Source of the DNA: Ruminococcus sp.
GTDB taxonomy: Bacteria > Bacillota > Clostridia > Oscillospirales > Acutalibacteraceae
DNA length: 39,429 nucleotides
Assembly: GCA_017395925.1 (NCBI GenBank)
Contig: JAFQNJ010000042.1
Location: forward strand, 1-39,429
Direction: 5' to 3'
Shown here: piece after piece, positions 33,679-38,135 of the stretch
Layout: every line of letters starts with the position of its first letter
Numbering within the stretch: the stretch's first letter is position 1
Notes under the pieces: generated by a model
What the model saw: the letters and a program-made list of their open reading frames with translations, nothing else
Database searches by the model: none
Told to the model about the DNA's origin: nothing
Translations under genes and position numbers: made by a program

Positions 33679-33711
33679 AGAGTGTTACACATAAACATAT
33701 ATACAGAGCTC

Positions 33712-33740
33712 TTTTCAAATCCCGTCCTTTGTGCTATAAT
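33712..33740 (+). promoter_or_regulatory. Promoter for the PflX-like radical SAM gene
   Basis: TTTTCA (33712-33717), 17-nt spacer, TATAAT (33735-33740). The predicted transcript start is within a few bases of the start codon, so the mRNA would be leaderless or nearly so. Confidence 0.55.
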
Positions 33741-33748
33741 CACCCTCG

Positions 33749-34642
33749 GTGATTACTATGATATGCAGATTATGTCCACATAAATGCTCGGCAAAGAGAG
33801 ATTCTGACACAAGAGGCGGCAGATGCAATATGCCTCTGACTCCCTCCGTTGCCCGTATTTCTCCCCACTTTTGGGAAGAGCCTCCCATCAGCGGAACAAA
33901 AGGCTCAGGTGCTGTATTCTTCTCGGGATGCACTCTGGGCTGTGTATACTGCCAGAATTTTGAAATCTCTCAGGGTTCAAAGAACTTCCCGAAAGTATCG
34001 GCTGAGACACTCGCCGATGAATATAAAAAACTGGAAGAAAGCGGTGTGCACAACATAAACCTTGTAAGTGCCACCCAGTTTTTGCCTACTGTAATCAGGA
34101 GTTTCGAAATTTACAAGCCAAAAATCCCCGTGGTTTACAACACGGGGGGTTACGAGAGAGTTGAGACACTGCGCGCTCTCGAAGGCATTGTTGATATCTG
34201 GCTTCCCGACTTCAAATATTCCGATAATACATTGGCAGAACTTTACTCCCATGCCCCCGATTACAGAGAGGTTGCAACAGAAGCACTTCGGGAGATGTTC
34301 AGACAAAAAGGAAAACTCACCATAGATTCAGAGGGAATCGCAGAAAAAGGCGTCCTCGTCCGCCATCTGATTCTCCCCGGACACACTAAAAATTCCATAG
34401 GCGTCCTTGACATCCTCAAAGATAATTTCGGCGACTCGGTAACGGTAAGCCTTATGGGACAGTATGTCCCCCACGGCAAGGCTTCGGATTTCAAAAATCT
34501 CGGTCGCAAAATTACAAAGAGAGAATATGAGAAGGTGTTTTCTCATCTTCTGAATCTGGAGCTTGACGGATTTGCCCAGGAGCTTGAAGCCGCAGATGAA
34601 AGTTACATCCCCTCCTGGGATTATAATTCCGAATCAGAATAA
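33749..34642 (+). CDS. PflX-like radical SAM protein (COG1313 type)
   Basis: 297 residues from GTG 33749 (ATG 33758 is an alternative; neither has an SD). An N-terminal Cys cluster CRLCPHKC...GRC precedes the radical SAM motif CTLGCVYC (Cys 61, 65, 68 counted from GTG), followed by QNFEIS. These, with ARISPHFWEEPPISG, are hallmarks of the PflX/PFL-activase-like family, whose targets are not known. No pyruvate formate-lyase is adjacent. It is divergent from the ABC operon and monocistronic. Confidence 0.88.
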   Translation: MITMICRLCPHKCSAKRDSDTRGGRCNMPLTPSVARISPHFWEEPPISGTKGSGAVFFSGCTLGCVYCQNFEISQGSKNFPKVSAETLADEYKKLEESGVHNINLVSATQFLPTVIRSFEIYKPKIPVVYNTGGYERVETLRALEGIVDIWLPDFKYSDNTLAELYSHAPDYREVATEALREMFRQKGKLTIDSEGIAEKGVLVRHLILPGHTKNSIGVLDILKDNFGDSVTVSLMGQYVPHGKASDFKNLGRKITKREYEKVFSHLLNLELDGFAQELEAADESYIPSWDYNSESE

Positions 34643-34653
34643 TAGCGATATAT

Positions 34654-34884
34654 AAAAAGCCGCCGCAAGCCTCAGCTCACGGCGGCATTAATTATATCCG
34701 AAATATATCCGAAATCGGGATTAAGGATAGAAATAATCAGAACATAAGTCTCCGTGAGGATTTTTTGACATTTACCGCATAATAAGTCTGAGCACAGATA
34801 TTATCATAAAATCTGTTATGCATCATTATCCTCACGTCCTTTCCCTTTTAAAAACTGAATCTGCCAAATAATGGAGCTCTGTAG
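34654..34884 (-). ncRNA. Probable stand-alone structured RNA, about 230 nt
   Basis: A strong minus-strand promoter (34918-34890) and a minus-strand terminator (34686-34659, then TTTTT) bracket 230 nt with no good coding frame. Inside are nested stems: a 9-bp stem CGTGAGGAT/ATCCTCACG (34837-34829 with 34761-34753), a 6-bp GCATAA/TTATGC stem, and an inner hairpin closed by ACAGAT/ATCTGT with a 3-nt loop. Downstream there is a small hairpin and a tandem 11-nt direct repeat. The gene beyond the terminator is on the other strand, so it is not a leader. Not recognised as tmRNA, RNase P or SRP RNA. A divergent 6S RNA is possible but I cannot match it. Confidence 0.7.
34659..34686 (-). terminator. 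Terminator of the putative ncRNA
   Basis: A 12-bp stem with a UGAG loop. On the minus strand two positions are G-U pairs that would be mismatches on the plus strand, and TTTTT follows. This fixes the transcribed strand as minus. Confidence 0.85.
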
Positions 34885-34889
34885 TTGTG

Positions 34890-34918
34890 ATTATATCACA
34901 AGGAAAGCCTGTGTGCAA
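34890..34918 (-). promoter_or_regulatory. Strong promoter of the putative ncRNA
   Basis: TTGCAC (34918-34913), 17-nt spacer, TATAAT (34895-34890), with an extended -10 (TGATATAAT). It lies 40-70 nt past the anti-sigma stop. It is one of the best promoter matches in the window. Confidence 0.8.
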
Positions 34919-34956
34919 CACTTAAATTCAACAAAATCTATTCTATTATAACACTT

Positions 34957-35955
34957 TTATTTCATACTAATTGTCAGCCACTTTCCGTTTTCACCCGACA
35001 AAAGTCCCATCAAAAGAGTCTTTGTCTCTGACGAACCGTCGCTGAAATTCACCACAACATCCACAGTTGCATCTTTCAGCACTAGTTCCTGCAATTCATC
35101 ACTTGCTTCAGCAAGCTCCAAGTACAGGTTGCCGAGCTTCTCACCGGAGGGAATTCCCTCTGCTTTTTCACTGATTATCTCCTCTTCGTAAATCCAAAGC
35201 TTCTTGAGGCAGGCTGCCTGCTCGGGATATTTAGAATCACCTTCAACTACAAATTCCAGCTTATTGCACAGATTAATAAAGTCCCTGTCATCTTTATTGT
35301 GATAAGTAAAGGTATCGCAATATATCTCTCCATAAGAGAGTCCGTCCTGATATGTCAAAAGCTCCTCTGCCGAATACGCCGAATTTGAGAGGCTCATATC
35401 GGTAAACCTTTCAGCCTGCGATGTTTGGGGCAGAGTATCCGAGGAGTAATATCCATCAGGGGATATTGCAAAATAAGTACCCTTTGCGTTTGCTCTGAAG
35501 GTAACGGACTCTATCCCCTCCCCTTCGATATTAAAACTGTTGAGACAATAGCTCTGAAAATATGCAGGCACTTCCTCTGAAGTCTTCTCAAAATTCTCAT
35601 ACATCGCCCAACTTCCCGCGGACTCTCCTGCATAGGCACCTATTACGGTATCGCTGACATCAACACCGAGATTCTGTGCCTCCATTGCATTGGCGGTTAT
35701 TATAAAGGAGTTTTCCTTTTTCTCACCTTGCCACGATGATTTGTCTGCACCGAAGAACACCGTTAACATAAACACCCCCGCAAGGCAAGCGGCAAGTGCC
35801 GCTGTGCCCAAGTATCTGAATGAATATCCGCTTCTCCTTGTTTCATCGGATAAACCTTTTGCTTCGTTTTTGTCCCTTGCCATCATAACTGTTTCCTCAA
35901 CAAGTTTTTCGGGCACTTTTATATCCGAAAGCTTTTCAAAATATTTTTTATACAC
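34957..35955 (-). CDS. Probable membrane-bound anti-sigma factor
   Basis: 332 residues from GTG 35955, which overlaps the sigma gene stop by 8 nt and has GGAG nine bases upstream; a TTG at 35976 lies on that SD. A short cytoplasmic N-terminus (about 45 residues), one membrane helix (about 48-68) and a large extracytoplasmic domain of about 260 residues. No zinc-binding HxxxCxxC anti-sigma motif is seen. The function is inferred from coupling to the ECF sigma gene and from topology. The outer domain may sense a cell-envelope signal; I do not recognise it. Confidence 0.75.
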   Translation of the reverse strand: MYKKYFEKLSDIKVPEKLVEETVMMARDKNEAKGLSDETRRSGYSFRYLGTAALAACLAGVFMLTVFFGADKSSWQGEKKENSFIITANAMEAQNLGVDVSDTVIGAYAGESAGSWAMYENFEKTSEEVPAYFQSYCLNSFNIEGEGIESVTFRANAKGTYFAISPDGYYSSDTLPQTSQAERFTDMSLSNSAYSAEELLTYQDGLSYGEIYCDTFTYHNKDDRDFINLCNKLEFVVEGDSKYPEQAACLKKLWIYEEEIISEKAEGIPSGEKLGNLYLELAEASDELQELVLKDATVDVVVNFSDGSSETKTLLMGLLSGENGKWLTISMK

Positions 35956-36457
35956 AATTATCTTCTCCTTCTTCAATTATTTTCCGCAGTCGCTCTCTTC
36001 CCCTTCTGAGTTGGGAGCCTACTGTGTTGGGGTTAATCCCCAGAATATTCGATATTTCTTCAATAGAAAATTCCTCAAAGTAGAATAAATATAGAACCGT
36101 TCTGTATTTCTTCGGAAGCTTCAGAAGCTCATCGGAAAGACAGTCTGATTCCCTTACGTTTGCCGCAACATTCTCATCAAGAGGCTCGAAAATATGCAAC
36201 AGCCTGTATTTTTTCAGGTTCTTGCATTTGTTGATGGTAACTCTGCATATCCAGTTGCGAAGGTAGTGCTCATCTTCAAAGGGCGGATTCGCTGTCACCA
36301 GAGTCAGTGCCACTTCCTGAAAAATATCCTGAGCATCACTAAAGTTACCTGTATACTGATAAGCAATGCGATATATGGTATCTGCATATTTTCGTATCGC
36401 TTTCTCTATGAGCGTGTTGCGTTTGTTGGTTTCATTTTTATCGGTACCGAATTTCAA
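35948..36457 (-). CDS. ECF-type RNA polymerase sigma factor
   Basis: 169 residues. Region 2 is seen as YRIAYQYTGNFSDAQDIFQEV and region 4 as LPKKYRTVLYLFYFEEFSIEEISNILG followed by TVGSQLRRGRERL, the helix-turn-helix that reads the -35 element. It starts at TTG 36457, seven bases after a full AGGAGG site; no ATG is close by. It directs RNA polymerase to a small regulon, probably including its own operon, and is held inactive by the product of the next gene. No ECF-type promoter was identified. Confidence 0.93.
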   Translation of the reverse strand: MKFGTDKNETNKRNTLIEKAIRKYADTIYRIAYQYTGNFSDAQDIFQEVALTLVTANPPFEDEHYLRNWICRVTINKCKNLKKYRLLHIFEPLDENVAANVRESDCLSDELLKLPKKYRTVLYLFYFEEFSIEEISNILGINPNTVGSQLRRGRERLRKIIEEGEDNCV

Positions 36458-36528
36458 GCTGTTGCCTCCTTTCGAATATTAATACAACCGAGAAAAGGAT
36501 AATTGTGCATTATTTGAAAAATTTCACA

Positions 36529-36559
36529 CAAAAACCCCCGTGCAAAACACACGGGGGTT
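36529..36559 (-). terminator. Intrinsic terminator of rny
   Basis: 10-bp stem AACCCCCGTG/CACGGGGGTT with a 7-nt loop, followed by T residues on the minus strand, 23 nt past the rny stop. Confidence 0.93.
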
Positions 36560-36581
36560 AATCATCATTTGGGAGTTTTGA

Positions 36582-38135
36582 TTACTTGGCGAAATCAATG
36601 GCTCTGGATTCACGGATAATGTGAACCTTGATGTGGCCGGGATACTCAAGCTCCTGCTCAATCTTCTGGCAGATTTCGCGTGCCAGAACAGCCATTCTGT
36701 CGTCACCCACAACCTCGGGCTTAACCATAATTCTGACCTCACGGCCTGCCTGAATAGCAAAGGAGCTGTCAACTCCCTCAAAGGAGGAAGCAACGCTCTC
36801 AAGCTTCTCAAGTCGCTTGATGTAGTTTTCGAGATTCTCGCGTCTTGCACCGGGACGGGCAGCGGAGATAGCATCGGCAGCCTGAACAAGACAAGCAACA
36901 ATAGTCTTTGCCTCAATGTCACCGTGGTGAGCATGGATAGCGTGGATAACAGCGTCGCTTTCCTTGTACTTTCTGGCGACCTCAACACCGAGTTCGATGT
37001 GGCTTCCGTCCATCTCGTGGTCGAGAGCCTTACCGATATCGTGGAGAAGTACTGCACGTCGTGCGATGGTGGGATCCATTCCCAGTTCGGATGCCATCAT
37101 ACCTGCGATGTAGGAAACCTCAAGTGAGTGGTTGAGAACATTCTGGCCATAGCTTGTACGGTAGCGGAGTCTGCCCAGAAGTTTGACAAGTTCGGGGTGG
37201 ACATTGCCTACACCCGCGTCGATAACTGCATGTTCGCCGGCGCTCTTGATGGTAGCCTCAACCTCACGTCTTGCCTTGTCAACCATCTCCTCAATTCTTG
37301 CGGGATGAATTCTGCCGTCGGAAATCAGCTTCTCCAGAGAAACTCTGGCAATTTCACGGCGGACAGGCTCAAAGCAGCTGAGAGTAATTGCCTCGGGTGT
37401 GTCGTCAATAATGAGGTCACAACCTGTGAGTGTCTCAATAGCTCTGATGTTTCTGCCTTCACGACCGATGATTCTTCCCTTCATTTCGTCGTTGGGCAGA
37501 GCAACTACGGAAACAGTTGCCTCGGTTACGTGGTCGGCGGCAAGTCTCTGTATTGCAAGAGAGATAATGTTTCTTGCCTTTTTGTCGGATTCGTCCTTGA
37601 GCTGCTGCTCATAGTCCATAATCTTCACGGATTTCTCACGTGCCAGCTCTGAATCAAGCTGTTCCAGAAGGTATGCTTTAGCCTGATCTGCACTGTAACC
37701 GGAGATTCTCTCCAGCATTTCAAACTGGCTCTTCTTGACGGTTTCGATTTCCTCAAGCTTTGCCTCGGCTTCCTTCTGTTTCTTTGCCACGTTTTCTTCT
37801 TTTTTCTCTAAATTGTCCAGCTTTTTGTCCAGAGTTTCCTCTTTCTGCTGGATTCTTCTTTCCTGTCGCTGAACCTCCTTGCGGCGGTCATTCAGCTCCT
37901 TTTCGGATTCATTTCTCAGGCGGTGGAGTTCATCCTTGCCCTCGATGATGGCCTCTTTCTTCTTAGCTTCGCCAGCCTTCATAGCATCAGCTATGATACG
38001 CTTTGCCTCCTGCTCAGCAGAGCCGATTTCGTTCTCGGCAACCTTTTTTCTGTAGGTAATACCGACGAAAACACCAACAACTGTGCCGATAATCAGGGTA
38101 GCAACTGCGATAACTATTGCCAGCCATAAATCCAT
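36582..38135 (-). CDS. rny: Ribonuclease Y
   Basis: 517 residues: an N-terminal membrane helix (about 4-27), a long charged coiled coil (about 30-170), a KH RNA-binding domain with [10 protein letters not shown] (220-229) and an HD hydrolase domain with [12 protein letters not shown] (His365, Asp366). RNase Y starts mRNA decay and processing at the membrane and takes the place of RNase E in many Firmicutes. Full SD AAGGAGGTG before ATG. The length agrees with the family (about 520). Transcribed from a distant promoter through a structured leader. Confidence 0.97.

Follow-up and report, generated by a model that had tools for sequence, protein, structure and literature searches.

A predicted small transcription unit in a Ruminococcus sublineage whose strong ribosome-binding site may be masked by its own short frame

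The DNA analysed here, which we call the window, is the whole 39,429-nt stretch of contig JAFQNJ010000042.1 from Ruminococcus sp. (contig C27 of our set; assembly completeness 75.5%). Its minus strand probably holds a real, lineage-restricted transcription unit, predicted from its own promoter and terminator, and we put the chance that this unit is a lineage-specific short self-locked mRNA or dual-function sRNA at roughly one in two. A first-pass annotation had proposed an undescribed, discrete small RNA of about 230 nt without a coding frame. Much of that description holds: the unit is discrete and on the minus strand, has no Rfam match, is not a leader, and resembles two syntenic relatives in its promoter, leader and start. 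The missing frame does not, as an ATG-started frame of 29 codons plus stop (MMHNRFYDNICAQTYYAVNVKKSSRRLMF; predicted, 34826–34737, minus strand) lies behind a very strong predicted Shine-Dalgarno tract, and the unit is probably not the plain noncoding RNA first proposed.

A predicted unit with its own promoter and terminator

The unit lies between a plus-strand radical-SAM gene (PF04055), which converges on it and has its stop at 34642, and a co-directional minus-strand gene without a Pfam match that ends at 34957, about 40 nt upstream of the unit promoter. The latter gene follows a minus-strand sigma-70-type factor gene (PF04542, PF08281) and is its probable anti-sigma partner. Beyond the sigma-factor gene are an RNase Y gene (PF12072) and, past that, a plus-strand frame that we take to be GAPDH. 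Only some species have the sigma-factor gene and its partner (34957–36457, minus strand, in the window) at this position, flanked by the RNase Y and radical-SAM genes; close relatives lack the pair there (compare L009, L011 and L013 with L006–L008, L010, L012, L014 and L016).

The extended -10 promoter that the first-pass annotation had placed on the minus strand is present at 34918–34890, with a -35 element read either as TTGCAC (34918–34913) or as TGCACA (34917–34912) and an extended -10 of TG.TATAAT (34895–34890). The promoter scan gave the spacing TGCACA-16-TATAAT and inspection by eye TTGCAC-17-TATAAT, in each case with TG preceding the -10; the same layout, TTGnAn-17-TATAMT with TG, recurs at the two related loci described below (L036 and L006). 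At the other end, the 12-pair hairpin of an intrinsic terminator spans 34686–34659 (minus strand) and adjoins a TTTTT run at 34658–34654. By eye, two of its G-U pairs become mismatches on the plus strand and the T run stands on the minus-strand side only, in agreement with the strand assignment made earlier. Promoter and terminator together delimit a transcript deduced to run from 34884 to 34654 on the minus strand, about 230 nt long (231 nt as folded). Consensus matches of this kind are weak evidence by themselves, since a scan of 33700–36600 (2.9 kb) found 6 promoter-like sites against 5.1 expected and 7 terminator-like sites against 2.0 expected; the two related species are what give the promoter and terminator of the window extra weight.

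The unit had also been said to have no co-directional gene just beyond it. This is correct downstream, where no minus-strand gene follows and the next gene converges, which argues against a leader role as the annotation had concluded; on the upstream side there is the gene that ends at 34957. Rfam 15 returned no match above its curated cut-offs in the window, and the scan of the unit, 6S RNA included, bore out the lack of a known family: at E 10 the unit stretch drew 11 matches, all under cut-off, and at E 1 L006 and L008 drew two, also under cut-off.

Related units occupy the same gap in two species

A DNA search with the unit of the window against 98 relatives found, besides itself, only 34 nt in G029. 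Extended to 161 genus genomes, it found nine genomes besides its own (best E 1.8e-5, in G161), none of them at the radical-SAM locus. The two of these nine matches that were inspected, in G029 and G161, cover the same AT-rich, promoter-like stretch before one orthologous gene, and we regard them as chance. As these plain searches gave no convincing relative, we compared syntenic gaps instead, and here a related unit does appear in the same gap in two species. Among the 11 closest radical-SAM relatives (L006–L016, 66–71% protein identity), a gap of comparable size occurs in two, L006 in genome G156 (411 nt) and L008 in G010 (348 nt; L008 and L036 are on one contig). In 8 of the 11 the gap measures 59–147 nt and lacks the unit, and the gap of L015 was not assigned.

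In L006 and L036 the gap contains, in order, the RNase Y terminator, an extended -10 promoter, a strong Shine-Dalgarno tract, an ATG that opens a frame of 37 codons, a hairpin that has a T run and the radical-SAM stop. Both units thus have their own promoter and terminator-like hairpin, separate from the RNase Y terminator; the hairpin is seen in the fold, and a simple scan of L006 and L036 did not list it. The distance from the end of the -10 to the ATG is 63, 51 and 53 nt in the window, G156 and G010, respectively. In local alignments from promoter to terminator, all three pairs beat 500 of 500 shuffles, scoring 336 against a shuffle mean of 158 for G156 and G010, 273 against 171.5 for the window and G010, and 250 against 168.9 for the window and G156. 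From the -35 to the ATG, 40 of 86 positions of the G010 row are invariant, most densely in GAAAGG..GTGAG..AATG. MAFFT alignments A1, A2 (3′ arm), A4 and A5 put parts of the start region or of the arm in the wrong place and were excluded from the counts. The three syntenic loci are thus similar from promoter to start, and their kinship rests on promoter, leader, start region and synteny. On the radical-SAM tree the holders cluster with modest support (76/46; 78% of 200 bootstrap trees), which a single gain would explain most simply.

Beyond these parts the RNA has diverged in its body, since neither the G010 unit nor a model built from G156 and G010 (R1) reaches the window. With the G010 unit as a DNA query, 16 of 161 genomes matched, namely itself and fifteen at E 1.2e-4 or worse, and at E 0.01 neither the window nor G156 was among them. 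With the G010 peptide, 8 of 161 genomes matched, itself and seven at E 0.006–0.044; three of these seven are interrupted by stops and none resembles a member. None of the 12 matches that model R1 gave in the window at E 10 lay at the unit, and in the 161 genomes R1 found its own two sequences, then seven at E 0.14–0.92 that we judged on inspection to be chance. Model R2 covers the stretch from promoter to ATG and was built from three sequences, that of the window among them; it scored these three members at 1.2e-20 to 2.7e-19 and the next best locus at 2.0e-4, with some match at E 0.5 in 153 of 161 genomes. Five of these next loci were inspected and set aside: L169, L170, L171 and L178 are promoter-like stretches before longer frames, and L173 lies in an apparent coding region. 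No further copy beyond the window, G156 and G010 was found in the 161 genus genomes, and, within the reach of the models, there is one copy per genome; a search of viral contigs with one pattern gave no exact match.

Other material occupies the same region elsewhere. In L026, L028 and L044 the gap that follows the radical-SAM gene measures 753, 774 and 712 nt, respectively, and contains apparent short frames for membrane proteins, together with a promoter-like stretch and terminators of their own, so this gap seems open to small insertions. A sister clade (L038, L016 and L039) has a different short element between the RNase Y terminator and the radical-SAM stop, a sequence resembling GTGCTATC.GC.TTATGC.TTAGC with a small hairpin. 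In L006, at about 1210–1255, two direct copies of a ~21-nt unit (TTTTTACTTATAAAAGGAGCA-like) stand just upstream of the G156 unit promoter.

An exceptional Shine-Dalgarno tract in a predicted stem

The 231-nt RNA has a predicted minimum free energy (MFE) of -64.7 kcal/mol, against -51.2 ± 4.4 for shuffled sequences (z = -3.06; 0 of 200 shuffles as good). Nested stems had been described in its interior. The 9-bp stem among them forms, pairing 34836–34828 with 34753–34761 (minus strand), whereas the inner 6-bp stem is absent as such: its arms, 34821–34816 and 34777–34782, are complementary, yet pair in neither the MFE nor the centroid structure. The 5′ arm of the 9-bp stem lies within and just after the Shine-Dalgarno tract, reading GGGAAAGGACGUGAGGAUAAUG on the minus strand, so that the predicted ribosome-binding site GAAAGGACGUGAGG is held in the stem; the 3′ arm, AUCCUCACG, is inside the 29-codon frame that starts at the AUG at 34826. 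A second segment, UCCUUAAUCCC (34717–34727, minus strand), pairs with the rest of the tract, joining GGGAAAGGA (34845–34837) in the MFE structure, for a total of 18 paired nt in both MFE and centroid; this second pairing was not seen in G156 or G010.

At the matching place in G156 and G010, by a sequence-only alignment, the nine pairs of the stem are kept in both genomes. Between the two, one pair is changed on both sides and four on one side, and slid versions of the alignment pair 25–61% of cells. To this extent the stem is kept in the relatives, where the annotation had asked for covarying stems; the shuffle control for covariation (255 of 500) is powerless with two rows.

The Shine-Dalgarno tract itself, GAAAGGACGTGAGG (34830–34843, minus strand), has its GAAAGGA 10 nt upstream of the ATG at 34826. 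GAAAGGA-c-GUGA is complementary, with one mismatch, to what we take to be the usual 3′ tail of 16S rRNA. An exact 16-base pattern of that tail was found in none of six assemblies, and the duplex energies given here use the usual tail, which may not be that of this species. On that assumption, the predicted duplex with the tail is -15.7 kcal/mol in the window, -15.7 in G156 and -18.1 in G010, against a mean of -10.1 for 93 control ATG starts of long frames that have a Shine-Dalgarno-like tract, taken from genus loci. Only 3, 3 and 0 of these 93 controls are as strong as the window, G156 and G010, respectively, and the Shine-Dalgarno is exceptional in all three loci.

Evidence for masking differs among the loci. 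Among the 93 controls, 2, 3 and 33 have a start region as closed as that of the window, G156 and G010, respectively (the order used below as well). The best duplex that the start region can form with the 150 nt after it is equalled in 3, 132 and 0 of 1000 dinucleotide shuffles, and by 0, 1 and 0 of 64 real starts. Masking is thus strong in the window, good by duplex and not by ensemble in G010, and the reverse in G156; it exceeds chance in two of the three loci, the window and G010, and is weak in G156 by shuffles.

A short frame without codon-level conservation

Evidence that the peptide itself matters is mixed. The start signals and the equal length of 37 codons in G156 and G010 (29 in the window) speak for it, and codon identities, alignment gaps and the lack of a family match speak against it. 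Between G156 and G010, identical positions number 20, 19 and 17 of 38 at the three codon positions. Over the first 22 gap-free codons, 13 are changed and none synonymously; random replacement gives a mean of 1.7 synonymous changes and none in 9.5% of trials. The frame ends of the two are not collinear, since their alignment has gaps of 3 nt and 1 nt, the latter breaking the frame near its end. None of the three peptides matched Pfam or NCBIfam at E 1. All are basic, with GRAVY values of -0.49, -0.34 and -0.23 and a best 19-residue window of at most 0.49, and hence not hydrophobic. This leaves three possibilities: a peptide that is free to evolve, a frame for which nothing but its being translated matters, or a frame that is not used.

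As the peptide lacks codon-level conservation, a noncoding RNA has to be weighed, and we consider it rather unlikely. In this alternative the unit would be a trans-acting sRNA whose stem is structural, whose Shine-Dalgarno-like tract and frame are incidental, and whose single-stranded UCAGUUACUC pairs with target mRNAs. Besides the codon pattern, the ordinary outline of promoter, fold and terminator fits such an RNA, as does UCAGUUACUC, identical in G156 and G010 and placed in a loop of both MFE folds. This motif is, however, missing from the window, and all three starts have an exceptional Shine-Dalgarno at the right distance from an ATG.

Other readings of the unit

Because a co-directional gene ends about 40 nt upstream of the promoter, the promoter could also be fortuitous and the unit no more than a decaying remnant or the sigma-factor operon's 3′ UTR with its terminator. 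The scan of 33700–36600 listed no terminator between that gene and the unit promoter, and the absence of the unit from the same gap in 8 of 11 close relatives would suit a UTR or a remnant. We nevertheless consider this improbable: in G156 and G010 the sigma pair is not beside the gap and RNase Y has its own terminator, yet the promoter-to-start region is still present.

Type I toxins are typically small, hydrophobic, membrane-type peptides. A type I toxin-like mRNA here would encode a harmful peptide, silenced by its own fold and by an antisense RNA antitoxin. A masked ribosome-binding site is a hallmark of type I toxin transcripts according to PMC6733600, and the patchy, lineage-restricted presence of the unit would fit. 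As to that masking, the duplex is strong in the window and G010 and weak in G156, and the ensemble is closed in the window and G156 and not in G010. The peptides are basic instead of hydrophobic, the models find one copy of the unit per genome, and a promoter-like site on the opposite strand within the unit is absent in the window and G010 and present in G156 as one weak site (9/12). Membership is not claimed because of the peptide and because such a site occurs in one of three loci only, and we consider this reading very improbable.

A divergent 6S RNA, which would likewise be a long interrupted hairpin of ~200 nt and of which no match was found in the 75%-complete assembly of the window's own genome (G000), is almost certainly the wrong identification, as a standard 6S gene (RF00013) sits elsewhere, above cut-off, in 50 of 60 genus genomes, including G010 on another contig, and RF00013 has no match at this locus at E 10.

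A proposed kinetic lock

For the self-locked mRNA or dual-function sRNA that we prefer, we propose that polymerase would start at the extended -10 promoter and stop at the 12-bp terminator, giving an RNA in which a very strong Shine-Dalgarno precedes a short frame of 29 codons (37 in the two relatives). The Shine-Dalgarno would be made first and the masking arm some 65–100 nt later, whereupon this arm, complementary to the ribosome-binding site and situated within the frame or close to its end, would fold back and close that site. Translation and folding would compete because the masking arm lies in the frame, under a loaded ribosome that would cover it. Translation might then be confined to an early phase, in which the ribosome keeps the 3′ arm unpaired, or to RNAs whose stem has been opened by cleavage or by another RNA; a folded RNA would stay silent until cut or bound. 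That the unit is transcribed and translated, that it switches kinetically and that its peptide has any role are inferred, and the kinetic lock is read by analogy with the AapA mRNAs of Helicobacter. Several results count against a self-locked mRNA: the G010 start is not unusually closed (33/93), the G156 duplex is ordinary against shuffles (132/1000), there is no codon-level signal, R1 misses the window, and the scans miss the terminators of the relatives.

A bolder form of the proposal, which we think unlikely, is that a Ruminococcus sublineage has, in these three loci, a new family of small mRNAs that lock themselves, the end of the short frame masking the near-perfect ribosome-binding site in front of it. 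The start signal and its masking would be kept in this family and the peptide would not. Synthesis of the peptide would then require a ribosome to load ahead of transcription of the 3′ arm, or else cleavage of that arm. The RNase Y gene beside the unit in two relatives, and the GAPDH gene further along, leave open a link to RNA turnover.

Relation to known systems

Masked start sites and small frames within small RNAs are known in bacteria, and in this sense the unit is new in sequence and familiar in kind, that is, ordinary by kind. The claim of novelty is bounded by Rfam and by a limited literature search, which found no study of Ruminococcus sRNAs. What had been a suspected noncoding RNA becomes a testable small gene or dual-function RNA, and the case illustrates how a stem taken for RNA structure may turn out to mask a ribosome-binding site. 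Should the lock be real, the unit would offer a compact natural case of a ribosome set against the folding of its own message.

The closest parallel is with the AapA mRNAs of Helicobacter pylori, in which a long-distance 5′–3′ interaction masks the Shine-Dalgarno until 3′ processing frees it, a non-translatable primary transcript being a hallmark of type I loci (PMC6733600). Like the AapA/IsoA system as portrayed there, the unit would be a short mRNA with a small frame and a Shine-Dalgarno masked by a downstream or 3′ segment, with competition among transcription, folding and translation as the central issue (PMC6733600). It differs in that its peptide is basic and not hydrophobic, in that it has no consistent antisense RNA gene, and in that the masking arm lies in the frame, whereas in AapA, by the same account, it is at the 3′ end (PMC6733600). 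SR1 of Bacillus is likewise an sRNA gene of comparable size that includes a small frame, of 39 aa; its product SR1P is described as acting through GapA on RNA degradation, and the unit here stands beside an RNase Y gene (PMC8152036). Homologues of SR1 are reported only in Bacillales, and we liken the two by description, not by sequence (PMC8152036). VcdRP of Vibrio cholerae, from another phylum, is a small RNA that also has a 29-aa frame; both base-pairing and a small protein are reported for it, whereas the unit described here has a predicted frame only (PMC8672173).
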